Origin: a virus
IMG/VR virus record: IMGVR_UViG_3300017786_000186
Coordinates: 1 to 21,065 of that record
DNA: 21,065 bases
Strand: one strand, 5' to 3'
Shown one piece after another: positions 1-21,065 of the stretch; position 1 is the first letter of the stretch, and the number at the start of each line of letters is the position of its first letter. The notes beneath the pieces were generated by a model that worked only from the letters and a program-made list of their open reading frames with translations, had not been told where the DNA came from and ran no database searches. Both the position numbers and the translations under genes were made by a program.

Positions 1-3000
1 AGCTATACGTTTAGATTGTTTAGCATAGTCTTTAACAAAATTATAAACTTGTCTACCATCTTTAAAACCTAGTTGAGCATTAGAAAATCCTATAGGTCTT
101 AATATGTTTTCAACTATAAACTTGCCTAGTTTAGTAAATACATTTTCATCGTATGCAATATCTCCTTTAACAACTCCATCAACTAAAGCATTAAAATATT
201 CTTCTGCATTAGCATCGTTTACACTAGTAACTCCATAATCATCTTTTAGTCTTTTCTCTACTACTTGTAGTTCCTTGTTTGTTAAAGAGTTTTTAAATCC
301 TTGTACAGTTTCAGAGGCTACGCTTCCTAGTTGCTTACCAACCACGCCGTGAAGTAACTCATGCTGTCCAACTGAAATATCTCTAAGATTTTTAGCAGCT
401 TCTCTATTTATGTATATATTACCATCATTATCTATGTAACCAGAAGTGCCTTTAAAACCTGCATCATCTTGCTCTCCTAGCTCTTTCATCTTAGCTTCAA
501 ACTCTTTAGATGAGTTAAATTCTGTAAAAGACTTACCAGATGCCTCAGTTTTTTCTCTAGCTTGCTCTAATCCCGCTTCAAATGCTGATTCAAAGTTATA
601 TTGTAAACTAACAGCTTCTAATTGTTCATTTATCTGAGTTATATCTTCTCTTTGTTTTTTTACAATAGCTTTATCAGTTGCTTTATCTATTTGTTTTTGT
701 AAAGCTTTTTTTCTCTGTAATAAAGTATATGCTTTTTTCTCCCCTTCAATAGTTAAACTCATATCATCTAACTCTCTCATTACGCCACCTTGCTCCTTTA
801 AATCTCTCAATATTGTATTAGCTTGTTCTTGAGTCATAGGATCATTAGGGTCCATTACTTTTAATTGTAAATGTTGAGAATAACCTTCTTGAAAACCTTT
901 ATTAAGCGTAAAGCCTTTAGCCATTCTATATTGGCTATCAGATATTTTATCCATTGCTTTAGCTTTACTAGCTTTATAACCTGCAGATATAGTTCCAATA
1001 GGTCCACCTGCTAAAAAACCCATAGCTCCTGCTCTAACCACATTTGACATGGTTATTTCTGTAGCCATTTTATCAAATACTTCTTTTTCTTTCCAAGCGT
1101 TAACACCAGACTTAATAGACATAGTAGCTATTTCTTGAGCTGCTTCAGTTACAGCTTCAGCACTACCAGCTTTTAAACCAGCTTTAGTTAAAGCATATAC
1201 ACCTGTTTCTAATCCTTCTTCTATTATTTCATTAGTAGCTTTTTTAATAGCAGCTTTAGATACTTGTTTACCCGCTAGCTTACTCATTACCTTACCTAAT
1301 ATACCTTTTCTAACTACTGAACTAATTCCCTTAGCACCAACTCCGCCTATCATACCGCCAAAATAACCACCAGCACCTTCTATAGCACCATTAACAACTC
1401 CTATTGTTGTAGCTAGACCAAACCTTTCTTTCATGGATAATCCTTCAAAGTCTTCACTCATCATCTCTTCCATTTCTCCACCAGCTATAGATAATCCCAT
1501 TAAAGCACCATAACCAACGGCACCTGTTCCAGTTAATCCTGCAGCTAACATCATACTGCCCATTTCGACCATAGAGGTATATACTCCACCAGCAACAGTA
1601 GAATTAAACTCTTGTTCGTATTCATTAGTTACATCAGCTCCATACTTTTCAGTTATTTTAGATATAGCCATTTCAGCCTCCCTTGCTAAGGCTTTTTTAC
1701 CCTGTTCTGGATCTTCACTCCAATACTTTTCAATATCATCTTCTTTTAAAGCTAACATGCCTCCATTAAAATAAGATGTTATTTTATCTCCAACGCCTAG
1801 TATAGTGTTTGCTGTTATACCAGCTATATTGCCTTTTTCAGCTTCTACTACATACTTTTTAGCATTGACTATTTGAAGTTGTGCTTGTAGAGGTTGTATT
1901 TGGCTACTGTACATGCTACTTAACCTTTTATCAGTAGCTAATATATCTTGTTCTGTTTTAACTAGTAAAACTTTTCTTTCTGCAATTTCCTCATTAGATA
2001 AATTACCTTGTTTTATTTCGTTTTGTAATTTTTGTAAATCTAATTTGTAAGTATTAAATGCCGCTTGATTCTGAAAATATTGCTTGTTAACATCTATTAA
2101 TTGGTTGTTTAATTTTTGTGTTTCTTCTTTAACAATATCAGCATCGTAAATTGCATCAAAGTTTTTTACTACATCATCAGAAACTTTTTCTTCTTTAAAA
2201 ATATTAGTGACCCAGTCCCAATCACCTTCACCTTTTTCATCTTTAGCAATTTTTTCCATTGCTGCTACATCTAAATCTCCATTAGCTATAGTAGCCATCT
2301 TCTTAATACTAGTAGGATTATAATTACCTTTATTTAAATCTAAAAAACTTTTTAATTTAGCTGCTTGTTCTTTATCGCCAGCATTAGTCCAATTATCTAA
2401 AGATATTTCCGTTGCTTGGCCATTAGGTGCATAAACTTTTATATTGTCTCCAATACCTGTTTCTTCAAAAGTAAAACCATAATCACCATACAAATTGTTT
2501 AAAGTACCATAAACTTGTTCTTCTTCGTGGCCTACAATTTTAGCTCCAAGATCTCCATCTAATACACTAGTAGGTATTTGACCTTGTTTAACACTAGATA
2601 AAGCATTAGATAAATCTTTATCATATTGCCCTAATTTATTATCATATGTAGAGCTTTCATCAAAATTTCTATAACTAGCTATTCCACCAGCTGCTGTATT
2701 GAAACCAACTTCTTTCTGAGACTCTAAAAATTCATCAAAAGATTTGTCTCCTGCTAAAATTCTTTTACCTTCAACACTTATGTTGTCCCACTCTCCAGAT
2801 TTACCTAATTCAAAATCTGAATCTTTAAGTTTCATCCTAACTTCAGTAGGTAAATGATCAAAAGACTCTATTAATAAAGCTTTGTTAGGATCGTAGCCAG
2901 AAAGTTTATTTTTAATTCTATCTCTATACTTATCATCTGGATTAATTTCAACAACTTCTTCTACAGCTTGATCTTCAGTAGTCGTATCAATAGTGCTAAT

Positions 3001-3141
3001 AGACTCTCCATCACCTGTTTCATCTTCTATTTTTTCTACTATAACAGCGTCTGGATATGTAGACATAAAATCCGAAAAATTACTATCATCTATGTCATGC
3101 CACAATTGACCTGTGGAATCTCGCATTGTATATTTTGGCAT
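1..3141 (-). CDS. Giant internal virion / ejection-type protein with HExxH metallopeptidase motif (3' end outside window)
   Basis: The frame is open from an ATG at 3139-3141 to the left edge: 1047 residues without a stop, C-terminus missing. Seen: an acidic N-terminus; coiled coil about residues 338-430; glycine/alanine-rich hydrophobic stretches about 511-551, 573-602 and 697-724; a second coiled coil about 774-860; then a strand containing GNIYINREAA followed by GQHELLHGVVGK, giving HExxH at 927-931, with Glu980-Glu981 (NAEEYF) as candidate third zinc ligand. This layout fits a zinc-dependent peptidase domain on a large virion protein. It follows 218- and 575-residue proteins, matching the T7 gp14-gp15-gp16 order, where gp16 is the largest ejected protein and bears a transglycosylase. 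I infer that it is packaged and ejected, helping DNA or proteins cross the host envelope. The peptidase substrate cannot be told. A polyvalent protein with another role is possible. The start follows the previous stop by 12 bases. Confidence 0.72.
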   Translation of the reverse strand, partial: MPKYTMRDSTGQLWHDIDDSNFSDFMSTYPDAVIVEKIEDETGDGESISTIDTTTEDQAVEEVVEINPDDKYRDRIKNKLSGYDPNKALLIESFDHLPTEVRMKLKDSDFELGKSGEWDNISVEGKRILAGDKSFDEFLESQKEVGFNTAAGGIASYRNFDESSTYDNKLGQYDKDLSNALSSVKQGQIPTSVLDGDLGAKIVGHEEEQVYGTLNNLYGDYGFTFEETGIGDNIKVYAPNGQATEISLDNWTNAGDKEQAAKLKSFLDLNKGNYNPTSIKKMATIANGDLDVAAMEKIAKDEKGEGDWDWVTNIFKEEKVSDDVVKNFDAIYDADIVKEETQKLNNQLIDVNKQYFQNQAAFNTYKLDLQKLQNEIKQGNLSNEEIAERKVLLVKTEQDILATDKRLSSMYSSQIQPLQAQLQIVNAKKYVVEAEKGNIAGITANTILGVGDKITSYFNGGMLALKEDDIEKYWSEDPEQGKKALAREAEMAISKITEKYGADVTNEYEQEFNSTVAGGVYTSMVEMGSMMLAAGLTGTGAVGYGALMGLSIAGGEMEEMMSEDFEGLSMKERFGLATTIGVVNGAIEGAGGYFGGMIGGVGAKGISSVVRKGILGKVMSKLAGKQVSKAAIKKATNEIIEEGLETGVYALTKAGLKAGSAEAVTEAAQEIATMSIKSGVNAWKEKEVFDKMATEITMSNVVRAGAMGFLAGGPIGTISAGYKASKAKAMDKISDSQYRMAKGFTLNKGFQEGYSQHLQLKVMDPNDPMTQEQANTILRDLKEQGGVMRELDDMSLTIEGEKKAYTLLQRKKALQKQIDKATDKAIVKKQREDITQINEQLEAVSLQYNFESAFEAGLEQAREKTEASGKSFTEFNSSKEFEAKMKELGEQDDAGFKGTSGYIDNDGNIYINREAAKNLRDISVGQHELLHGVVGKQLGSVASETVQGFKNSLTNKELQVVEKRLKDDYGVTSVNDANAEEYFNALVDGVVKGDIAYDENVFTKLGKFIVENILRPIGFSNAQLGFKDGRQVYNFVKDYAKQSKRIA
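193..390 (-). other. HExxH zinc-peptidase core within the giant internal protein
   Basis: HELLH is encoded at 349-363 (residues 927-931). The residues before it (GNIYINREAAKNLRDISVGQ) have the usual form of a strand plus helix leading into a metallopeptidase active-site helix. NAEEYFNAL at about 190-210 supplies two adjacent glutamates roughly 50 residues after the motif, a plausible third metal ligand. Known: HExxH supplies two zinc-binding histidines and the catalytic glutamate in many peptidase families. The exact family cannot be assigned by eye. Confidence 0.65.
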
Positions 3142-5958: not shown

Positions 5959-7854
5959 TTAATTAGATGATTGTACTTGATTAGAAAATACTGCAAATAT
6001 TTGCTTAGATCCACCAATATCTGTTGATGAATCTGTTGATATTTTAACTGTTGCTACATATCCTTTTATACCACTAGTTGGATAACCACCATAAGCATCT
6101 GGTCCAAATACTACTTCACCAGCTCTTGCAGTGCTATTACTTTTTAAGTTAGCAACATATTTACCTTCTTTTAAATGGAAACCAGCTCTATATATTGGCT
6201 CTGTTAACGCCGCTGGATACTCATTACCAGCTGAGTCGTAAGCACCTTCATAGTAACTATTTACTATTACACTTGTATCAGTGTAATTTACATACCCTGG
6301 ATTTGTGGTTCCTGGATTTATATAATTATCAGGAACTTCTTGTAATCCTTGTATATCAGAAGTAAAACTATTTGCTTGCCATCCGTTACTTCCTTCATAA
6401 CCAACGGTTAAAAAGTTTTTATTAGTGTTTGGCATTGGATTAAATACAAAAGTTATAGATGATTGAGCCGATGCAGCACCATAAAATACATTTCTATTTT
6501 TAGGGTTATTATTAAAATAATGTTGGTATATTTCTCCACCGCTGGTAGTAAAAAAAGTATTTTTTAAACTAAACAAGTTGTTAGGTTTAAAACTAAAAAA
6601 GCTTGGCCAACCTAAAACACCTTCGTCAAAAGATAAAGTTTCATAAATGCTAGTTCCATCACTTAAAGTTCCTTTAGCTTTTTGTAATGACAAAGTGTAT
6701 TTACCATCGTGTATGTCCCATCCGCCAACTATTCTATCTTTTTTAAAACTTCTAAATATAATAGGCGAGTCGTTAGGTATAATATAAGATATTTCTTCTG
6801 ACAACGCAACATAGCTTAATGCTGGAGCAGCATTACTATCATAACCTATAACGTAGCTATTAAATTCTATACCATTTATAATTAATTGAGATCCTATTTC
6901 TATATCAACAGGAGTTGTTATAGTAATATAAGGAGACGCGAAAACAGTGCCACCAGATTGATCATTACCATATACAGCCGAAACGTCTACAGCTTCTGGG
7001 TTTTCATTAATATTTTTTAATTCATCTCTAAAAAAGTTAGACATGCCATATTCTGATATTTCAGTCATGCCATCATGAGATAATCTAAGTATAGAACCTC
7101 TATCTTTATCAGCAAAGTATTTTCTAAAACCATATACAGCAAATGATTCTGGGTTTTTACTTATCCCAAACTCACCTCTATATGGAGTTATTTGACCAAT
7201 AACAGTTCCTTGAGGTAATGTTTGAGTACCGCCTTCAGACGTGTAAATTTGATCTTTATCTATTAAAGCTCTATTTACTTTATCCTCTTGAAATACTATT
7301 AAGTTAGTGTCTTCAGCATATAACTTCTGTATGCTTCCTCTTTGTGGATCAACAGCTTTGGTTATAGCTTCACCTACTGAAAAAACATTTGTTTGATTTA
7401 ATCCTGTTCTAGAATTATAAACTCCAGAATATATCAAAGCGTTAGGTCTTGCTTCTTGTTTGTTATTTTCTTCTTTTAAATAAGATTTAGCTCCAAAACC
7501 CACTGAAACATTATTGTAGCCACCTTGGTATCTAGACTCTTCTACAAACCAATTTTCTGCTTCATCAAATGGATAAGTCTGTATAATAGCAGTTGGTGGA
7601 GCGGTTTGGTATCTTTGTGTCTTACTTCCGCAGCCAGATGGATAAGTAGGAAAACCAGTAGGATTCCAAACAAGTCCAGGGAAATTAGAACCTTGACCAC
7701 CTCTATATTGTTGAGGAAGTGTAATTCCTGCATCTGGATCAGTGCCACCAGCATCGTAGTTATATGGTATACTACCTGTAGTTGGTGTTCCTAGATATAT
7801 AGCTTTTTTTAACCAAAAAGTGTTATAATAAGATACTTCTATTGTATATGCCAT
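5959..7854 (-). CDS. Tail hub / nozzle protein (631 residues), beta-propeller-like
   Basis: The sequence is beta-rich, aromatic and Gly/Ser/Thr/Asn-rich, without signal peptide or membrane segment. Residues about 170-290 carry the run LYAEDTNLIVFQEDKVNRAL, then GEFGISKNPESFAVYGFRKY and DRGSILRLSHDGMTEISEYG, ending FFRDEL. Repeated 'G.(I/V)...NPES...YG...Y..D..RG.I.R.S.DG.' is what I recall from phage tail-tube terminal (nozzle or 'muzzle') proteins, where it builds a propeller around the tail channel. The C-terminal third is beta-rich and may face outwards. It follows the 1160-residue hub protein by two bases, so the two probably form one tail-end complex. The T7 counterpart by position is gp12. 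The exact subunit role is inferred. ATG at 7854. Confidence 0.65.
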   Translation of the reverse strand: MAYTIEVSYYNTFWLKKAIYLGTPTTGSIPYNYDAGGTDPDAGITLPQQYRGGQGSNFPGLVWNPTGFPTYPSGCGSKTQRYQTAPPTAIIQTYPFDEAENWFVEESRYQGGYNNVSVGFGAKSYLKEENNKQEARPNALIYSGVYNSRTGLNQTNVFSVGEAITKAVDPQRGSIQKLYAEDTNLIVFQEDKVNRALIDKDQIYTSEGGTQTLPQGTVIGQITPYRGEFGISKNPESFAVYGFRKYFADKDRGSILRLSHDGMTEISEYGMSNFFRDELKNINENPEAVDVSAVYGNDQSGGTVFASPYITITTPVDIEIGSQLIINGIEFNSYVIGYDSNAAPALSYVALSEEISYIIPNDSPIIFRSFKKDRIVGGWDIHDGKYTLSLQKAKGTLSDGTSIYETLSFDEGVLGWPSFFSFKPNNLFSLKNTFFTTSGGEIYQHYFNNNPKNRNVFYGAASAQSSITFVFNPMPNTNKNFLTVGYEGSNGWQANSFTSDIQGLQEVPDNYINPGTTNPGYVNYTDTSVIVNSYYEGAYDSAGNEYPAALTEPIYRAGFHLKEGKYVANLKSNSTARAGEVVFGPDAYGGYPTSGIKGYVATVKISTDSSTDIGGSKQIFAVFSNQVQSSN

Positions 7855-7856
7855 TA

Positions 7857-10800
7857 CTATTGAGTTAGTTCTATTTTTAAAGAGTAATAAGTTTCTCCAC
7901 TTCCAGATATTCCTTGAGCATCTTGAACCTTTATTTTTAATATAATAGGTGTGTTTAAAGGAATTCCACTGCTAGGTCCATAAACTACAGGATCACTATC
8001 GGTTGACATTGTTAATAAACCTCCACTATCTATTAGTCTGAAAAAAGGATCTGTTGTTGAATTTTGAACTTTATTAACAACAACTTCTAAGTCTTGTAAA
8101 TCTGGACCAGATGAGCCATTAAAAGGTTTAGTTGTTGATTGACCACTGTTAAATAGATCTATAGTGCCTAAAGAATCACCTATATGTCTAGGCCCTGGCG
8201 AAGATATATGTATAGGGTAAGTAACACTTCCTCCAAGCTGACCTAAAGTCCAAGTGAGAGATCCTTGCGATGGTATTGGACTTAAACTAGGATTAGTGTT
8301 ACTTAGTAATAATTGTTTAGTAACTAAATTATTACCATTAGCTAATATTCTTAACGTTACATTAAAAGTTCTATCATTGCTATCTTGGCCCCAGTAAAAA
8401 TATTGACTAGGCGATGTTGATCTAACTCTTAGTCTATATCTAAAACCAGTTGTATTAACCAACTCAAAAGGAACAGGAGAAATTACAGCGCCATTACCAT
8501 TAGTAATACTAACCAACTCTATTGTTCCTACACTCATTAAAGTGTTGTTGCTGTCTACAGTTTGAAACTCAGGGCAAATCCAAGCACTTAGACTAGGTAC
8601 TATACTTTCGTTAGCGGTTAAACTTATAGGTTCTGGATTAGCTACTGGCGTAGCAATATCAACACCTATACCACCGCTGCTTGTAGCGATTGAAGAATTT
8701 AAAGGTTTTATTAACCCAGAGGTCGTGGTTTCGTTATATATTTCTATTTTAGACTCAACAGGTTCGGTTTCAAATACATTTAAATTTTTTGAAAAAGTTG
8801 GTGCAATTGAAGTAGATACTCCATTTTGCAAATCAGGTGAAAAACCAACTAAAAAGTTAGTTTCAATTTGTGCAACAAACGGATTACTACTAGCTTCTAA
8901 ATATAAAGGATCTATATATACGGTATTAGTAGTTGCAAAATTATTAGGATAAGAAGATTTTTGTGCATATTTTCCTCTATTAGCTGTCCACGGTCCAAGA
9001 TCATTAAATGATACTATAGAGTTAACTGTAAATTCGTTTTTTTGATAAACTTGAGAGGATTGAGATAACGCTAAAGATGGCAACCATGAAGCGGGATGAT
9101 TAGTAGGTGATACTATATATTTAGTAACTACTCTAGGGTAGAGCAGTGTTTCACTACCATATATTTCTTCTGTAGGGCCTACGTCCGCTAATTCTTTTGG
9201 AACTTTGTTTATGTTGTCACCATACAACACTATATTACTTACGTTGTTAGCTCTTTTATAAGAAGGTTTTGCTGGCGTGTTTAAAGTCCCGTCACCTACT
9301 TCACCTGTAAATACTATCTTGCCTGAAGTAGCACCTGGTACATATACATTGTAATATTCTTGTTCTAACTGTTGTACTACAACCTTGTATGTTAAATAAC
9401 CTAATGGATTTAAAGGCGTACTTCCAGAGTGTATTCCGTTAAATATACCTGGATAACCATTTGTTTTGCTAGTAGGTATTATGTCACTAAAGCTTATTTT
9501 TAAATTATTACCTGGCCAATTTAAAGTGCTAACTAGGTTTTCGTATGGCGCGTATACACTAGATTTTTCACCAGCTAAACCTAAACTTATAGACTCATCT
9601 CTTAATATAACATTAGAAGACCTACCATATCTGTCTATTAAAACAATACCTACTTTATATGATCTGTTTTGTTTTAGTGTATGGTTTATGTATTCTTTTC
9701 TGCTGTAACTATAGCCTCCAGATAAACTACCTATAGCTTTTTTTTCGCTGACGCCTAAGTAGTAATTTAAGTTTTCAGGAGAAGCGTGATTTTCTATAAA
9801 ATTTCCATATATAATTCTATTGCTTGCTGTAGCTTGAGCAGCAGCTCTAATAGGAACTTTATCGTGGACTCTAGTAGAAGCAGCATCTGGTAAAGTTTTA
9901 AATGGCTTAAAAGATTCATAACTGTATGAATAGTATCTATCAGTATTAGAAGTTAATTGATCTTCCACTATTATATCATCTACTACTTTTATAGCTATAC
10001 CATCTGATTCTTTAGCTAGTATTTGTATTTCTGTTACTTTAAAGTTGTTAAAAAAATCACTTTGAACAGACCCAGCAGTTGGGCTAGCTACATCAATACT
10101 ATACCTAGGTGGTAAATCTATTTTAAAAGTTGCACTAGTAACTTGGTTTTCCATGAACTTTACAATACCGCTGTCAGCAGTATCTTTTTCGTTTCTTTGA
10201 GTTTCTCCACTATAGCCACTATCTAAAAAATAACCAAAGTTTTTTGGTATAAATAAAGATTGAGTAAAAGGAGCCATTAAAGAATATTCGCCATCGTCAT
10301 ATTTAAACCTATAGCTAAAACTTACAAATTTATCTTTTAAATATTCGTCATCGCCGTCAAAATCTGCATTGTAATAAGGGTTAACTTGTTCAAATTGAAT
10401 AACATCACCAGCCTCAAAAGCAGCTGTGCCTGATTCTATGTATTTAGCAGCTGCATTACTAGCTTCTGTTACAGCGTTAACACCTGTCATACCAGATCCT
10501 ATTGGATATTCAAAAGTTAAATTTTTTTGTGAACCGGTAATATTTGTTAATTTAAAATAACCTAGCTCTGGTTTATTTATATTTATAAATCTTGTAACTG
10601 GTGAAGTTGCAATGTCAATGTTTGCAAATTCTAAATTTACAGTAGAAGAAGATAAAGCTTGTACAACAGATGTTGAGTGCGAAGGTAGATATTCAGATAT
10701 ATTATCTTGCATTGTATTTTCATTGCTATTGTTCAAAAAAGATATTGGAGAAAAAGGAGCAAATTTAGCGACTGAAATATGGTCTTCGTTAAAGTAATAT

Positions 10801-11339
10801 GTAGAATCTGCAATAGCTGTCTCTACGTTTATTTTTCTAGGTTGATTTCTATTGTCAGTAAAAAATAGTAAATCTTCTAAAAGATCTACACCTAACATAG
10901 GATGAGTTTTAGAAAAATTAAGAAAACTTCCTTCAACTAAAACACCAGAAGCTGGCGATGTAGAATTATTAAATGGACCTTGTATATATGCAATGTAGCA
11001 TTTAGAACCAGGTATGGTTCCACCAGCTGGATGTGGCACATTGTCAACTGGAAAATTACTTAATTGATCTTGAGAAGAATCAACAAAGTTAGTAGCAAAT
11101 ATATATATTCTATCTTTATCTGTATCAACATAAGTACCAATAATTTCTGTATTAACAGCAAAATTAAAATTAGAATATTTTATATTCCCTAAAATATTTT
11201 CAACAACCCCTTCGTCTGGTCCTTCACTTTTACTTATAGATATATTTCTACCATCTCTATATTCGCCGCTAGGTAAAAGTCTTTCATCTAAGTCTTTGTT
11301 CATTTTAGACTTGACAAATACATTTCTTACTTCTGCCAT
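7857..11339 (-). CDS. Large tail structural protein (1160 residues), hub with cadherin-like C-terminus
   Basis: The N-terminus (VRNVFVKSKMNKDLDERLLP, then GEYRDGRNISISKSEG) is the kind of opening I associate with tail-hub/nozzle proteins of crAss-like and related marine podoviruses. Beta-propeller-like strands follow: DKDRIYIFATNF about residues 74-85 and LLEDLLFFTDNRNQPRKINV about 153-172. The rest is a long beta-rich chain of Ser/Thr/Asn/Gly-rich domains. The last 90 or so residues look like a cadherin/Ig-like beta sandwich (FRLIDSGGLLTM, then LKIKVQDAQG). Such C-terminal domains often decorate tails and bind host surface, but that role is inferred. It lies one base after the 395-residue connector gene and two bases before the 631-residue hub gene. 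It ends in TAG; most other genes here end in TAA. No enzymatic motif seen. Confidence 0.65.
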   Translation of the reverse strand: MAEVRNVFVKSKMNKDLDERLLPSGEYRDGRNISISKSEGPDEGVVENILGNIKYSNFNFAVNTEIIGTYVDTDKDRIYIFATNFVDSSQDQLSNFPVDNVPHPAGGTIPGSKCYIAYIQGPFNNSTSPASGVLVEGSFLNFSKTHPMLGVDLLEDLLFFTDNRNQPRKINVETAIADSTYYFNEDHISVAKFAPFSPISFLNNSNENTMQDNISEYLPSHSTSVVQALSSSTVNLEFANIDIATSPVTRFININKPELGYFKLTNITGSQKNLTFEYPIGSGMTGVNAVTEASNAAAKYIESGTAAFEAGDVIQFEQVNPYYNADFDGDDEYLKDKFVSFSYRFKYDDGEYSLMAPFTQSLFIPKNFGYFLDSGYSGETQRNEKDTADSGIVKFMENQVTSATFKIDLPPRYSIDVASPTAGSVQSDFFNNFKVTEIQILAKESDGIAIKVVDDIIVEDQLTSNTDRYYSYSYESFKPFKTLPDAASTRVHDKVPIRAAAQATASNRIIYGNFIENHASPENLNYYLGVSEKKAIGSLSGGYSYSRKEYINHTLKQNRSYKVGIVLIDRYGRSSNVILRDESISLGLAGEKSSVYAPYENLVSTLNWPGNNLKISFSDIIPTSKTNGYPGIFNGIHSGSTPLNPLGYLTYKVVVQQLEQEYYNVYVPGATSGKIVFTGEVGDGTLNTPAKPSYKRANNVSNIVLYGDNINKVPKELADVGPTEEIYGSETLLYPRVVTKYIVSPTNHPASWLPSLALSQSSQVYQKNEFTVNSIVSFNDLGPWTANRGKYAQKSSYPNNFATTNTVYIDPLYLEASSNPFVAQIETNFLVGFSPDLQNGVSTSIAPTFSKNLNVFETEPVESKIEIYNETTTSGLIKPLNSSIATSSGGIGVDIATPVANPEPISLTANESIVPSLSAWICPEFQTVDSNNTLMSVGTIELVSITNGNGAVISPVPFELVNTTGFRYRLRVRSTSPSQYFYWGQDSNDRTFNVTLRILANGNNLVTKQLLLSNTNPSLSPIPSQGSLTWTLGQLGGSVTYPIHISSPGPRHIGDSLGTIDLFNSGQSTTKPFNGSSGPDLQDLEVVVNKVQNSTTDPFFRLIDSGGLLTMSTDSDPVVYGPSSGIPLNTPIILKIKVQDAQGISGSGETYYSLKIELTQ

Positions 11340-14483: not shown

Positions 14484-15989
14484 TTAAGCTCCTTTGAATA
14501 ACACGAAGTTATTAGCAGCTTGAGTTACTAAACATCTTTCAGATAAGAAATTAACTTTCATAGCATCAAGATCAGAAGTATAAGCACCACCAACAGAACC
14601 AGTGATCCAAGACTTATAACGTCTGTCTTCAGTTTCAGAAGCTCTATATCTTACGTGTAAGAAAGGACGTCTGATATTTACACCCATCATTTGGTCATAA
14701 ACAGTAGTAGTACCAGCAGGAACCATAACACCATCAATAGCATTATCTAACCCTCTAGTAGTAGCATCGTTTAAGTATTTCCAGTCAGTTTTGTAGAAGT
14801 CATAAGAACCTCTTCTAAATCCTGAAAATCCAAAGTTTAATGCCATATCTTCTTCATTGTCAAAAAGACCATAAGAAGCAGACTGAGTAGAAGCATAACC
14901 TCCACCGGCCATAGCACCGATCATGTCATCAAAATCCAAAGCAGTAGCTCTTGATAAGAAAAGCATGTTTTCTTCAATAGCACCTTGCTTGTCTAATTGC
15001 TTAAGGATAGCATCAAAATCTCCTAATGCACCAGCTCCAGGAGCAGCAGCTCCAGCAAATCCAGAATATACGTTACCTCTTGCTTCAATAGCAGCAAATA
15101 AACCTTCAGATCCTTTAACTACAGTAGCACCAGAGTTTCCGTAAGCAAAAGCTTCAGTAGCTCTACCACCAGTAGTATCATATTTAACTGCTTCAACCAT
15201 AGACATTTCTAGGTAATCGTCAAATCTTAATCTTGTTTCAGACTCAGATTTTAAATACCATAAGTATCCAGATGTTCCATCTTCAGTAGCAACTTCAACC
15301 CAACCAATTTGAGCAGTATCAGATCCATTAATCTCAAAGTTGTCTTTAAGAATAATTGGTGAATTTGAAAACTGAGAAAATTGTGGCTGAATAGTTCCAG
15401 TCATTCCAGTAGAACCTTTAGCAAACTCAGAACCATATACAAATAATGAAGCAATGTTAGCTCCTTTTAATGTAGCAGGTAAATTAGCATAAGTAGTCTC
15501 ATACAAAGAACAAGTTAACTCATCTTGTAATGTACCAGCTGAACTAGTAACGCTTTGTACTAAAGCTTTAGCAGTTACTAATCCTGTAGCTCTATCAGAA
15601 AGTAAAATAGATTGTCCAGGTCTAACAGCACCATTTGGAGCATCAGCACCAGGAGCAGCAGCAGCTAAATCTAAAGTAATTTTTATTTGGTTAGCTTGAC
15701 CACCAACAGCAGCTGTAGAAGAATTCTTATACGCTACGTGTAATCTATTTTGCTCAGACCATACTACTTGATCAGATGTCATAGGCATTTCAGCGCCTAC
15801 CATTCTCAAGAAACCACCTAAAGTTCGGTTTCCGTATCTTTCTACTTCCGCTTCGTAAAGCTCAGGTAGATATTGTTGCGCAAAATCATTAGCACCACCT
15901 GTAAAATCTAGGTAGTTATCGTTAAGTGCTAATCTTTTTTGAGCAGGCTTAATTTGTGCAGGAAAACTCCCACTTGTATTAAAACTCAT
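14484..15989 (-). CDS. Major capsid protein (501 residues)
   Basis: The N-terminal region reads YLDFTGGANDFAQQYLPELY and then EVERYGNRTLGGFLRMVGAE, followed by MPMTSDQVVWSEQNRLHVAY. This is the opening I associate with major capsid proteins of crAss-like and related marine podoviruses, and 501 residues fits that group. The rest is Ala/Gly/Thr-rich with few cysteines, including the loop GAAAPGAGALGDFDAILKQL near residues 313-332, and ends RRPFLHVRYRASETEDRRYK, a typical strand near the HK97-fold P-domain end. Composition (low Lys, high Ala/Gly/Thr), position after the scaffold-like gene, and the small gene plus terminator downstream all agree. No protease cleavage signal or prohead protease gene is evident. 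The ATG at 15989 lies four bases after the scaffold stop, with an A-rich leader. Confidence 0.85.
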   Translation of the reverse strand: MSFNTSGSFPAQIKPAQKRLALNDNYLDFTGGANDFAQQYLPELYEAEVERYGNRTLGGFLRMVGAEMPMTSDQVVWSEQNRLHVAYKNSSTAAVGGQANQIKITLDLAAAAPGADAPNGAVRPGQSILLSDRATGLVTAKALVQSVTSSAGTLQDELTCSLYETTYANLPATLKGANIASLFVYGSEFAKGSTGMTGTIQPQFSQFSNSPIILKDNFEINGSDTAQIGWVEVATEDGTSGYLWYLKSESETRLRFDDYLEMSMVEAVKYDTTGGRATEAFAYGNSGATVVKGSEGLFAAIEARGNVYSGFAGAAAPGAGALGDFDAILKQLDKQGAIEENMLFLSRATALDFDDMIGAMAGGGYASTQSASYGLFDNEEDMALNFGFSGFRRGSYDFYKTDWKYLNDATTRGLDNAIDGVMVPAGTTTVYDQMMGVNIRRPFLHVRYRASETEDRRYKSWITGSVGGAYTSDLDAMKVNFLSERCLVTQAANNFVLFKGA

Positions 15990-17222: not shown

Positions 17223-19634
17223 TTATTGTGGAGCAAATTGCTCTAATCCAAATCCACCAAGGTTGTCATTACCTGCGGATTCAAAATTTGTTGGTAATAA
17301 ATCATTTTTCTTTTGATCTATCATTTGACTCTGTTGAGTACCTATAAGTTTAGCTCGTTTATCTTTACGATCTTCTATAAAAGTTTCTTTATTTCTTTCA
17401 GCTTCACCTTTAGCTTGAGTTAACTGTATATTAAAATCAAATTCAATTTGCATTAATTGTCTTTTAATTTCAGCTTCTCTTTCCATACGTTGTATTTCAA
17501 ATTGAGACTTACCTTGTTCAATTGATAAAGTTGTTTGAGCTAAAGCCTCTTGCTTTTGAACTTCTGCCATAGCTGTTCTTTCTGCAGTTTCTGCTTGAGC
17601 TTGTCCTTGAGCAGCTATATTAGCTTGTTGAGCTTCCTGATCTTGTGCTTGCTTTTGTTTTCTTCTTTGTTTTAGTAATTGATTAGCAAGTTTTAAATTA
17701 TTGACTTGTCTAATATCAATTGCGTCTTCTAAGAATATCTGACCACTCTGTAGCGCTACTTGAATATTTTGCTCTAACTGAGCTTTTTCTTCTTCATCAG
17801 GTACTAAGTCTAAAAATATACCAAAGTCATACAAATGTAAGTTATATATATCCTCGAGCGTTCCTACGTTATAAGAACTTATACTAGACTTTAAAGCATC
17901 TCTAGTTAAATCAAATTCTAAGCAATCACCAACTCTAAGTGCGATATTTTCACATGTTCTTAATGTTAAATATAAACTTGCTTGAACTATATGTCTTGTA
18001 GCTGTATTAGAATTAGCAATAGCTAATTTTTGTAACCCAACTAAAGAATCACTAGCAGGTGTGCTTCCATCTCTAGCTTCATTAAGCCCGGTCACATCTC
18101 TTATCATTTGTAAATAATATTGATAAGTCTGTATAAGCCCTTGTATTTTACTCATACCACTAGATGTAGATAATTCTTGTATAGGCACTTTACCAGGGTT
18201 TTGACCACCGTCTTGAGTCATTGACCTACCAATAATACTACCAGTTTGAAAATACATATTTAATGCTTCTTGTGGATTGTAACTTGTTCCACTACCTAAG
18301 TCTATTTCTGCTAAACCATCAGCATCTAAATAAACACCATCAGGTACTATTCTAGACATTACTTGCTGAAGTTTTAGATGCGTTAATTGAATCATATCAG
18401 CAAAACCTGTTATTCTACTAACTAGAGATTCAATTCTGCCTTTATACATTCTAGGAGCACATATGTTATAGTTCATATTGACTTTAACTAAGTTAGATTC
18501 TGGTCTAGTCATATTCTTAGCTAACTCCCATTGTAACAAATTTTCATGTCCTAATATTTTAGCGCCAGAATACAATACTTCAATTGATCTAGACACTCTA
18601 TCAAACTTATCACTGGCTGGTGGATTAAAAGCATCTGTTTTTTCTAAAGCTTTTTCTAAACCAGTAGCTGTTTCTTTTATTTTAAATACTTGTTCGCTAT
18701 AAGTTTTGTATTCAAAGTATAAAACATAAACACTATTGTTGTCATCTCTACCTTGCCAGTCAAACATATAATTACTATTTCCTGGATACTTCTGTATTCT
18801 TTCTAATTCATCTGGTGTTAAATTAGGAAACTCTTGTTTAAGATCTGATAAGCTAATTCTTTTAACTTCACCAACATACCATATGTCTTCAAAATTAGGA
18901 TCTTCAGTATATGAATAAACTAATCTAGCTGGATCAACATAATCAACAGTAATACCTTCAGCTTTGTTAAAGCTTGTTTTAGTGCAACCTATACCTAGTA
19001 TAACTAAATCTTCATTTATTCTTCTTCTAGTTAATTCGTATCTATTTCTATCTAAAGTATTATTTATTAATTCTTCTTCAGCTATCTCTACAGACTGCTT
19101 GTAGTCTAACTGCATGTGTAACTCCAGCTCTTCTTTGTTTTGAGGAAGATCTTCAGGGTTTTCAGTAGAATATAAATTTAAACCTAATGTTTGTTGTATG
19201 TTATCTAAATATTCTTGAGTCTCTATATCTCTTAATATTCTATTAGCGTATTCTGTTCTAGACTTGAGAGACTCAGGATCTTGAGCATAAGCTTTTATTT
19301 CATAAAGCTTTTCAGACATGCCATTAACAACTATATCTACAAACTTAGGTATAACTGGAACTGGTTTCCAGTCTAAGTTTAAATAAGACAAATCACCATT
19401 AATAGCTAATTCATCTTTGTATTTTTGAACAGCTTGTTCTCCTCTAGCGTAAAGTCTTAAGTTCCTAAAATTATTAAAGTTAGTAGAGTATCTATTACCT
19501 AATCCAGTTCTAGTTCCACTAAACCATTCACCCTCTATAGCTTTGCCAACTTGCATGCCATAGTCATAGCTTGATTTTACTTCATCAGGAACAACTTGAT
19601 CTGGAAAAATACTATTACTATCAGTTACAACCAT
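17223..19634 (-). CDS. Portal protein (803 residues)
   Basis: An early helical segment and conserved-looking stretch (WKPVPVIPKFVDIVVNGMSE, about residues 89-108) precede a long stem-like helical insert and the block LVILGIGCTKTSFNKAEGIT followed by VDYVDPARLVYSYTEDPNFE (about 210-250), typical of phage portals ('...G.g..k......g.....v.P..v..d...'). Later MIRDVTGLNEARDGSTPASD matches the portal clip/wing segment 'i.e.TGin...'. From about 653 a 100-residue Gln/Ala/Glu/Lys coiled coil leads into a Gly/Asn-rich tail; such C-terminal barrels extend into the capsid in podovirus portals. About 800 residues matches the crAss-like size class and exceeds T7 gp8. The ATG directly follows the terminase stop (TAA ATG, no gap), supporting translational coupling. 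Confidence 0.85.
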   Translation of the reverse strand: MVVTDSNSIFPDQVVPDEVKSSYDYGMQVGKAIEGEWFSGTRTGLGNRYSTNFNNFRNLRLYARGEQAVQKYKDELAINGDLSYLNLDWKPVPVIPKFVDIVVNGMSEKLYEIKAYAQDPESLKSRTEYANRILRDIETQEYLDNIQQTLGLNLYSTENPEDLPQNKEELELHMQLDYKQSVEIAEEELINNTLDRNRYELTRRRINEDLVILGIGCTKTSFNKAEGITVDYVDPARLVYSYTEDPNFEDIWYVGEVKRISLSDLKQEFPNLTPDELERIQKYPGNSNYMFDWQGRDDNNSVYVLYFEYKTYSEQVFKIKETATGLEKALEKTDAFNPPASDKFDRVSRSIEVLYSGAKILGHENLLQWELAKNMTRPESNLVKVNMNYNICAPRMYKGRIESLVSRITGFADMIQLTHLKLQQVMSRIVPDGVYLDADGLAEIDLGSGTSYNPQEALNMYFQTGSIIGRSMTQDGGQNPGKVPIQELSTSSGMSKIQGLIQTYQYYLQMIRDVTGLNEARDGSTPASDSLVGLQKLAIANSNTATRHIVQASLYLTLRTCENIALRVGDCLEFDLTRDALKSSISSYNVGTLEDIYNLHLYDFGIFLDLVPDEEEKAQLEQNIQVALQSGQIFLEDAIDIRQVNNLKLANQLLKQRRKQKQAQDQEAQQANIAAQGQAQAETAERTAMAEVQKQEALAQTTLSIEQGKSQFEIQRMEREAEIKRQLMQIEFDFNIQLTQAKGEAERNKETFIEDRKDKRAKLIGTQQSQMIDQKKNDLLPTNFESAGNDNLGGFGLEQFAPQ

Positions 19635-21065
19635 TTATTTTATTATTTGTGAAAAACTTCCTTCGTTATTATATCTTTTAATACCTAAATTAACATTTTT
19701 TATGCTTCTATCAGCTACAGGTTTGTATAAATTCTTGTTACAAGCCATTATAGCCAAGCCAGAGCTTATTGAAGCATCATGCTTTGTTCTATTGTTTATG
19801 TTGAACTTAGCCCAGTCTTCTAGGGTTTTTTGGAAATACATATCTCCATATTCGTTTTCTTTTGATCCTACATAAGTTTCTATGTAAGATTCTATTGCAG
19901 CAGCGTGTGCTTGTTTAATATCTTCACTTGAGTTAGGTATTCCACCTATCTCTTTTTCAGTTGTTGAAAGTTTATTCCAAATTTTATCAGGACGATTCAT
20001 TGAAAAACCTCTATAACCTCTTCTTTTTAAATAGTATAAAAACCTAGGTTTATTATTTTCAGCAAGTATAGGCATGCCGTAAAATACCATAGCCATTAGT
20101 ACATCTTCAAAAAATATCTCAGCTGTTTGCGGCCTTGATATATATTCTAAAAAGAAATGATTTGGTGGCACGTCTTCCATTGAAAATTTTGTAAGTCCAT
20201 GTAAAGCTCCGTTAGATCCTTTACCGTCAACTGTACCTGAAATATCGTAACTATCAAGGCCAAAGGCACCAATATGCTCATTGCCAGGACTTTTAACCCC
20301 ATTCTTTAGTATCACTCGATTTTGTAAGTTTTTAGATGGCACCCATGATATTAAAAATCTACCATTATTATTAGGTACGAATATTACAGAGGTATCTTTT
20401 ACACCATTATCCCATTGAAAACTTCCTCTAGTTACACTATTTATATTATTTATTTCTTCATTATAATCTATTTGTTCATAGATTTTAGTTAAATTAAATA
20501 AACTATCTTTTGTTTCATCTCTAAAAGCATGCGCTTCAGTTCTTGGAAACTGCCTATAATATTCGTTTAAACTATCGCTGTCTGACTTGAGTCCTTCGAC
20601 TTCATTTTGCCAATGCTCGATAACTCCTGTTGTAATTTCATAACCATCAGCTCCTTTGACTTTACCTTCTGCTCTAACGAATACAGGTAATCCATAAGTA
20701 TCGATGAATCCTTCGTAGTTCCACTCCATAGGAATGAACAAGCTATAGAGCCCAGAAGATGTTTGTCCGTTTCTATTTCTTTTAGTAACGTCTGAATTGT
20801 AATAAAGTTTTCTAAAGTTTTCTCCACCTTTATCTAAAGCATTTGAAGTTGAGCCCATCATACATTTACCTACAATTCTTGAACCAAGACGCAGTGTAGT
20901 TTTTGTAACTCTCCAGTTGTTTAATATATTATCAGGTCTTTCCCATTTACCACTTTCATCATGAGCTAATAGTTTTAGCTTTTCACCATCATAAGAGTTA
21001 TCACCTGTGTTTTTCCAATCAATAGTTGTATCAAGTCCGTCTAGTTCTCTAAGCTGTTCATTCGA
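19635..21065 (-). CDS. terL: Terminase large subunit (5' end outside window)
   Basis: The frame stays open from the stop at 19635 to the right edge (476 residues visible), so the internal ATG at 20861 is not the start. Visible: hydrophobic strand then acidic pair LKLLAHDESGKW (Asp36-Glu37 of the fragment), a candidate Walker B with catalytic Glu; SRIVGKCMMGSTSNALDKGG, the coupling motif after it; and a nuclease domain with three acidic positions in order: Asp271 in GAFGLDSYDISG, Glu336 in MPILAENNKPRFL, and Asp430 in NRTKHDASISSGLA. These are the RNase H-like metal ligands of terminases. Walker A lies upstream, outside the window. The protein packages phage DNA into the prohead through the portal, whose gene follows with no gap. 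Small terminase subunit not in view. Confidence 0.88.
   Translation of the reverse strand, partial: SNEQLRELDGLDTTIDWKNTGDNSYDGEKLKLLAHDESGKWERPDNILNNWRVTKTTLRLGSRIVGKCMMGSTSNALDKGGENFRKLYYNSDVTKRNRNGQTSSGLYSLFIPMEWNYEGFIDTYGLPVFVRAEGKVKGADGYEITTGVIEHWQNEVEGLKSDSDSLNEYYRQFPRTEAHAFRDETKDSLFNLTKIYEQIDYNEEINNINSVTRGSFQWDNGVKDTSVIFVPNNNGRFLISWVPSKNLQNRVILKNGVKSPGNEHIGAFGLDSYDISGTVDGKGSNGALHGLTKFSMEDVPPNHFFLEYISRPQTAEIFFEDVLMAMVFYGMPILAENNKPRFLYYLKRRGYRGFSMNRPDKIWNKLSTTEKEIGGIPNSSEDIKQAHAAAIESYIETYVGSKENEYGDMYFQKTLEDWAKFNINNRTKHDASISSGLAIMACNKNLYKPVADRSIKNVNLGIKRYNNEGSFSQIIK

Follow-up and report, generated by a model that had tools for sequence, protein, structure and literature searches.

A putative zincin metallopeptidase retained in the giant ejection-type protein of mostly marine phages related to crAssphage

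The largest of the three ejection proteins of phage T7, gp16, carries a transglycosylase. Zincin-like metallopeptidases (MPTases) are the commonest domain of the polyvalent proteins of phages, where they fall into 12 clades, and self-processing of such proteins has been proposed, the processed DdrB of phage P1 also being cited (Iyer et al. 2017, PMC5512222). Self-cutting has therefore been predicted since 2017 against a background of conflicting examples, DdrB being proteolytically processed before packaging and the N4 virion RNA polymerase (vRNAP) not being processed (PMC5512222). In phiCrAss001 the cargo proteins gp45-gp50 are stored in the capsid and tail (PMC10172136); the words ‘protease’, ‘zinc’ and ‘peptidase’ are absent from the main text of that paper, and we found no earlier report of zincins in crAss-related phages in the literature searched.

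The DNA described here, referred to as the window, is the whole of IMG/VR record IMGVR_UViG_3300017786_000186, which comprises only 21,065 bases. It belongs to a crAss-related podovirus, a marine relative of crAssphage, whose host is probably a flavobacterium. By capsid protein, the closest annotated genomes are flavobacterial phages (the elemo phages, Panino and Cellulophaga phi38:1) together with MW202828. The last big gene of all of these likewise encodes a giant, of 1691-3859 aa. The genes we could place in the window, all on the minus strand, are as follows.

1..3141, minus strand: giant cargo/ejection protein, first 1047 aa; the C-terminal ~1900 aa are cut off by the contig end
3154..4881, minus strand: 575-aa protein in the slot of T7 gp15, DEV gp72 and crAss C1 (a likeness of position only); same slot in relatives, order compared with PMC10925440
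4893..5549, minus strand: 218-aa protein with a hydrophobic N-terminus in the slot of T7 gp14 and DEV gp73 (a likeness of position only); same slot in relatives, order compared with PMC10925440
5551..5952, minus strand: GNAT-like protein (phrog_17252, 1.2e-31)
5959..7854, minus strand: muzzle protein, C-terminal part (Pfam crAss_MUZ_C 2e-7; phrog_14478)
7857..11339, minus strand: muzzle-type protein, N-terminal part, a separate ORF (phrog_14478, 4e-46)
14484..15989, minus strand: major capsid protein (phrog_13704, 5e-87)
17223..19634, minus strand: portal protein (phrog_6547, 7e-142)
19635..21065, minus strand: terminase large subunit, incomplete (phrog_6681, 4e-93)

The giant is the fourth gene after a crAss-like muzzle, following the GNAT-like, 218-aa and 575-aa proteins, and by gene order it occupies the slot of T7 gp16 and of the N4 virion RNA polymerase. 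This succession of small, medium and giant matches the ejection set of N4 and DEV (PMC10925440) and gp14-15-16 of T7, and with few exceptions it recurs in 80 loci found through the GNAT-like protein, wherever the contig reaches far enough. Two related proteins, elemoF gp18 and phi38:1 gp101, carry the record annotation ‘structural protein’, and the phage structural proteomics papers searched gave no usable data on the giant. From gene order and precedent it is very probable that the giant is located in the virion. There it would be packaged close to the portal alongside the products of the two smaller preceding genes, and it would leave the particle before the DNA or together with it. As to the neighboring genes, the muzzle-type protein (phrog_14478) is split here into two adjacent ORFs (5959-7854 and 7857-11339); elemoF has one long ORF of 4.5 kb at that place. 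In hundreds of phages the GNAT-like gene (phrog_17252) holds a fixed place between the muzzle gene and those for ejection, and its phi38:1 counterpart is annotated as a structural protein.

Within the window (minus strand, 1-3141) the giant is one uninterrupted reading frame of 1047 codons that runs off the contig end. As the window is the whole record, the missing C-terminus was taken from relatives. A complete homologue in locus L003 (8001-16886) has 2961 aa and is 94% identical over the window part, as is a homologue of at least 2234 aa in locus L002. The first-pass annotation had placed a HELLH motif at the end of the protein; given the length of the L003 homologue, the predicted active site lies instead about one third of the way in. 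Purifying selection acts on the whole frame (dN/dS 0.07 in the comparison with L003, 0.28 in that with L095) and also on the peptidase part taken separately (0.10 and 0.12). The same annotation had described hydrophobic glycine-rich segments, and one such stretch is visible by eye at ~515-730; by hydropathy, however, no strong transmembrane segment rises above threshold in the window protein, nor did a scan near the peptidase give a consistent one.

The features of the peptidase are listed below.

1..531, minus strand: zincin-like metallopeptidase domain, residues 871-1047 (65-member alignment A7 and AlphaFold2 model)
406..417, minus strand: strand that precedes the active-site helix, IYIN at residues 909-912 (DSSP on AlphaFold2 model)
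328..372, minus strand: active-site helix, residues 924-938 (DSSP on AlphaFold2 model)
349..363, minus strand: HELLH, residues 927-931, with H927 and H931 as two predicted zinc ligands and E928 as predicted general base (invariant in 65/65 and 80/80)
169..207, minus strand: second helix, residues 979-991, bearing E981 (DSSP on AlphaFold2 model)
199..201, minus strand: E981, predicted third zinc ligand (invariant in alignments; on helix 979-991 of the model)

To gather homologues independently, the 80 loci were retrieved through their GNAT-like protein and the genes downstream of it were read. Of the giants at these loci, 62 reach 1500 aa or more, and 55 of these have HExxH, at positions from residue 557 to 1431, against an expectation of 0.005 in each. 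There are departures from the motif: the L154 giant has HEMVGH, an HExxxH variant, at residue 1005, that of L161 has HDAFH at the motif, and the giants of L153, Panino and phi38:1 have no HExxH. In L115 and L134 the motif reads EELFH (EExxH), the first His being replaced by Glu with the other residues kept, and these two look like natural peptidase variants that are possibly inactive. A profile detected the domain in 52 giants, a count that by itself is no test of the motif, the seed having been selected by it. In alignments of divergent copies H927, E928, H931 and E981 are the only invariant columns, in 33 sequences and again in 65. The first-pass annotation had named Glu980/981 as the downstream residue; both are present in the window protein, but conservation singles out E981. 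An independent scan relied on YNF[IVL]K[DE]Y, a conserved segment outside HExxH; it returned 258 relatives, and all four residues are kept in 80/80 of the best 80, although many loci are mutually related and copies should not be counted as independent events. When 20 giants were aligned over their full length, M1 and residues of this active site were the sole invariant ones. The domain is also present in gp18 of the cultured elemo phages, with HEIFH at 1543 (profile 4.5e-8; 43% identical to L144).

The alignment proposed at first pass thus upheld both His, the Glu and E981 in essentially all domain homologues, the exceptions being the two EExxH variants and the few giants without the domain. 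That HELLH arose merely by chance within a coiled-coil protein can be dismissed for practical purposes: the expectation in the composition of the window protein is 0.003, the residues are invariant in 65 and in 80 copies, and the frame is held by purifying selection. The frequency of HExxH among the 62 giants likewise excludes chance. On these alignments the predicted peptidase site is nearly universal in a phage group that has exchanged most other parts of the protein.

Two AlphaFold2 models were obtained (pLDDT 79 and 85; for the second, pLDDT 84.9 and pTM 0.73). They run strand-helix-strand-strand, then the HELLH helix, then a later helix with E981, so that the motif noted at first pass, with its preceding strand, does sit on a helix; neither of the two outcomes named at first pass as refuting the site was thus seen, apart from the minor exceptions given above. 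Foldseek returned no significant PDB match (PPEP-3 at E 1.2, collagenase G at E 1.1); against viral models its best matches were giant phage proteins, some of them named polyvalent. PDB sequence profiles gave no meaningful match for the domain, the window protein had no peptidase match in Pfam or PHROG, and no family covering the domain was found in either; members show scattered weak Pfam matches to the HExxH families M78, SprT, ATLF and M90. Judged from sequence and predicted fold, residues 871-1047 are very likely an active zincin metallopeptidase, and there is strong support from sequence for the predicted binding of zinc by H927, H931 and E981 and the activation of water by E928.

Like the polyvalent MPTases of Iyer et al., the domain combines HExxH with a Glu on a downstream helix, has its three strands and its helices in the described order, admits an HExxxH variant, and lies within a giant phage protein of several domains whose modules can be exchanged. 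Unlike them, it is nearly universal in one phage group and is covered by no Pfam or PHROG family. The best reading is that it works as the polyvalent MPTases do and would form a new family, judged against Pfam and PHROG. In N4, and likewise in its relatives among Schitoviridae, the virion RNA polymerase (gp50) is encoded by the largest of three ejection genes, and the C-terminal zincin region of gp50 aligns over the strand and HExxH (KTIY...HELVHA with NIYIN...HELLHG) and has an invariant downstream Glu. The spacing from second His to Glu, however, is ~78 in N4 and 50 here, no RNA polymerase was found here, and the match of N4 to the domain profile is weak (hhalign P 0.008, probability 5%). 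P1 DdrB is annotated as a possible metallopeptidase; membership of the family was considered and set aside, a profile comparison with DdrB as a single sequence giving no alignment over the motif. The phiCrAss001 genes for gp45-gp50 also follow the muzzle gene, but the giants there are RNA-polymerase-associated (PMC10172136). The comparison with T7 gp16 made at first pass holds for position, as the largest of three ejection proteins, and fails for protein sequence; no transglycosylase was found in the giant.

Two traits of polyvalent proteins are evident in these giants, namely several unrelated enzymatic domains in one polypeptide and exchange of domains between relatives. Along the L003 protein the conserved islands are the peptidase (~850-1045), a HAD/polynucleotide-kinase-like domain (~1900-2100) and a C-terminal region (~2250-2900), and the variable parts are the N-terminal 800 residues and 1450-1890. 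The zincin and the HAD/polynucleotide-kinase-like domain (phrog_415, 1e-6) occur in one polypeptide in P0002, and single relative giants have Pfam matches to Zeta-toxin/AAA_33 and to GNAT. Comparison of L002 with L003 reveals 94% and 87% identity on either side of an unrelated insert (L002 1452-1788 against L003 1456-1892), which on sequence is a clean swap of one cassette in a giant whose flanking parts are 87-94% identical. No giant among the 80 loci was split soon after the peptidase. Toward the other end a further module could be delimited; a tblastn search of annotated phages with the whole protein matched this module of MW202828 and nothing else.

2026..2562, minus strand: N-terminal module, residues 194-372, common to the MW202828 giant at 27-30% identity (sequence comparison)

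A short motif, [KR]FS[KR], occurs 38 times in 46 giants against 5.7 expected, about sevenfold, with part of this excess reflecting shared ancestry of the same sites; in the upstream virion genes it occurs 3 times against 4.5 expected. Permuted motifs were mostly near expectation, [KR]LS[KR] being also raised (35 against 10.7). In a second sample 69 of 72 copies lay C-terminal to the peptidase and 3 elsewhere, and in the giants of L092-L171 the copies fall mainly at module borders, for example at residues 1474, 1827 and 2028 of L134. A role as a recombination anchor was considered and rejected: codons vary, with 15 different 12-mers, and the motif is therefore conserved at the level of protein. 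One may imagine the giant as an effector polyprotein that cuts itself, in which the conserved zincin reads [KR]FS[KR] linkers and frees the modules singly in the new host. We regard this as unlikely, and the L115 and L134 giants, which keep three copies each despite their EExxH, weigh against the zincin as reader of the motif. If true, phages could plug in new effectors merely by keeping the linker motif.

How the peptidase is used can be considered on this basis. It sits between the N-terminal portion and a row of exchangeable modules toward the C-terminus. Most probably it cleaves its own giant, acting in cis or in trans, either while the head matures or once the protein has passed through the tail, and would thereby release the modules. 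The first-pass annotation had offered three roles, as a substitute for the wall-cutting enzyme, as a protease of a virion partner, or as one acting on a host protein; cutting of a virion partner, above all of the giant itself, is the one we favor. Whether such self-processing is the main role we judge to be an even call. In its favor, neighboring modules swap between L002 and L003 while the peptidase stays, [KR]FS[KR] is enriched and found mostly on the C-terminal side of the peptidase, and self-processing has been proposed for polyvalent proteins (PMC5512222). Against it speak the packaging of N4 virion RNA polymerase uncut, with what seems a comparable domain, the three [KR]FS[KR] copies in each of the two EExxH giants, the three giants that have no HExxH (L153, Panino and phi38:1), and the PDB fold searches, which gave no significant match. 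The main rival is an active zincin that reaches the host by ejection and there cuts a protein of the host, such as a defense or transcription factor, the giant remaining uncut. Polyvalent proteins commonly bear host-directed effectors, and some of their peptidase domains are allowed such a role (PMC5512222); the giants described here also hold effector-like modules (Zeta-toxin/AAA_33, GNAT, HAD/polynucleotide-kinase-like). Effectors should turn over, however, and the peptidase is the least exchanged catalytic feature, kept across very divergent phages, which leaves host cleavage a less likely but serious competitor to self-processing.

It has also to be asked if the domain is there chiefly because its fold helps the giant to be packaged or to fold, with catalysis secondary. 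The region of N4 virion RNA polymerase that holds the peptidase domain is needed for encapsidation (PMC5512222), and the L115 and L134 giants retain the domain although its motif reads EExxH. Were the domain purely structural, the four catalytic residues would nevertheless not be expected to be its sole invariant ones in 65 copies, and we consider this explanation improbable. Still further from likely, and in our view very improbable, is the idea raised at first pass that the peptidase replaces the transglycosylase of T7 gp16 and opens the peptidoglycan layer. The gene has the position of gp16 and no transglycosylase was found in the giants, which would suit a replacement, but a muralytic signature was looked for and none was found: Pfam gave no match to a peptidoglycan-hydrolase or lytic transglycosylase domain in 41 related giants, nor did Pfam or PHROG to a lytic transglycosylase in P0001, P0002 and P0003. 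HExxH-Glu zincins are not known to act as peptidoglycan hydrolases.

The kind of domain, a polyvalent-protein zincin, is already known (Iyer et al. 2017, PMC5512222); new are the domain family, its near-universal retention in a phage group, the naturally occurring variants of its active site and the motif at module borders. A predicted function can now be named for one of the largest unannotated proteins of these phages. They form a large group, most of it marine, in whose giants, 2000-3500 residues long, only the peptidase site comes close to being invariant. Cultured members (the Flavobacterium elemo phages), the natural variants and a candidate site motif make self-cutting directly testable.

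Some further observations concern individual modules. Residues 2250-2900 of the L003 giant are its most conserved region by coverage and are without a Pfam or PHROG family. In the L002 insert the stretch ADIVLTYYGQEIGIEAKK resembles, by eye only, a PD-(D/E)XK nuclease core. The L119 giant has a Walker A motif, GGPGAGKT, at residue 2134; the Pfam match to Zeta-toxin/AAA_33 among relatives probably stems from it, and it would represent a toxin-like module in an ejected giant.
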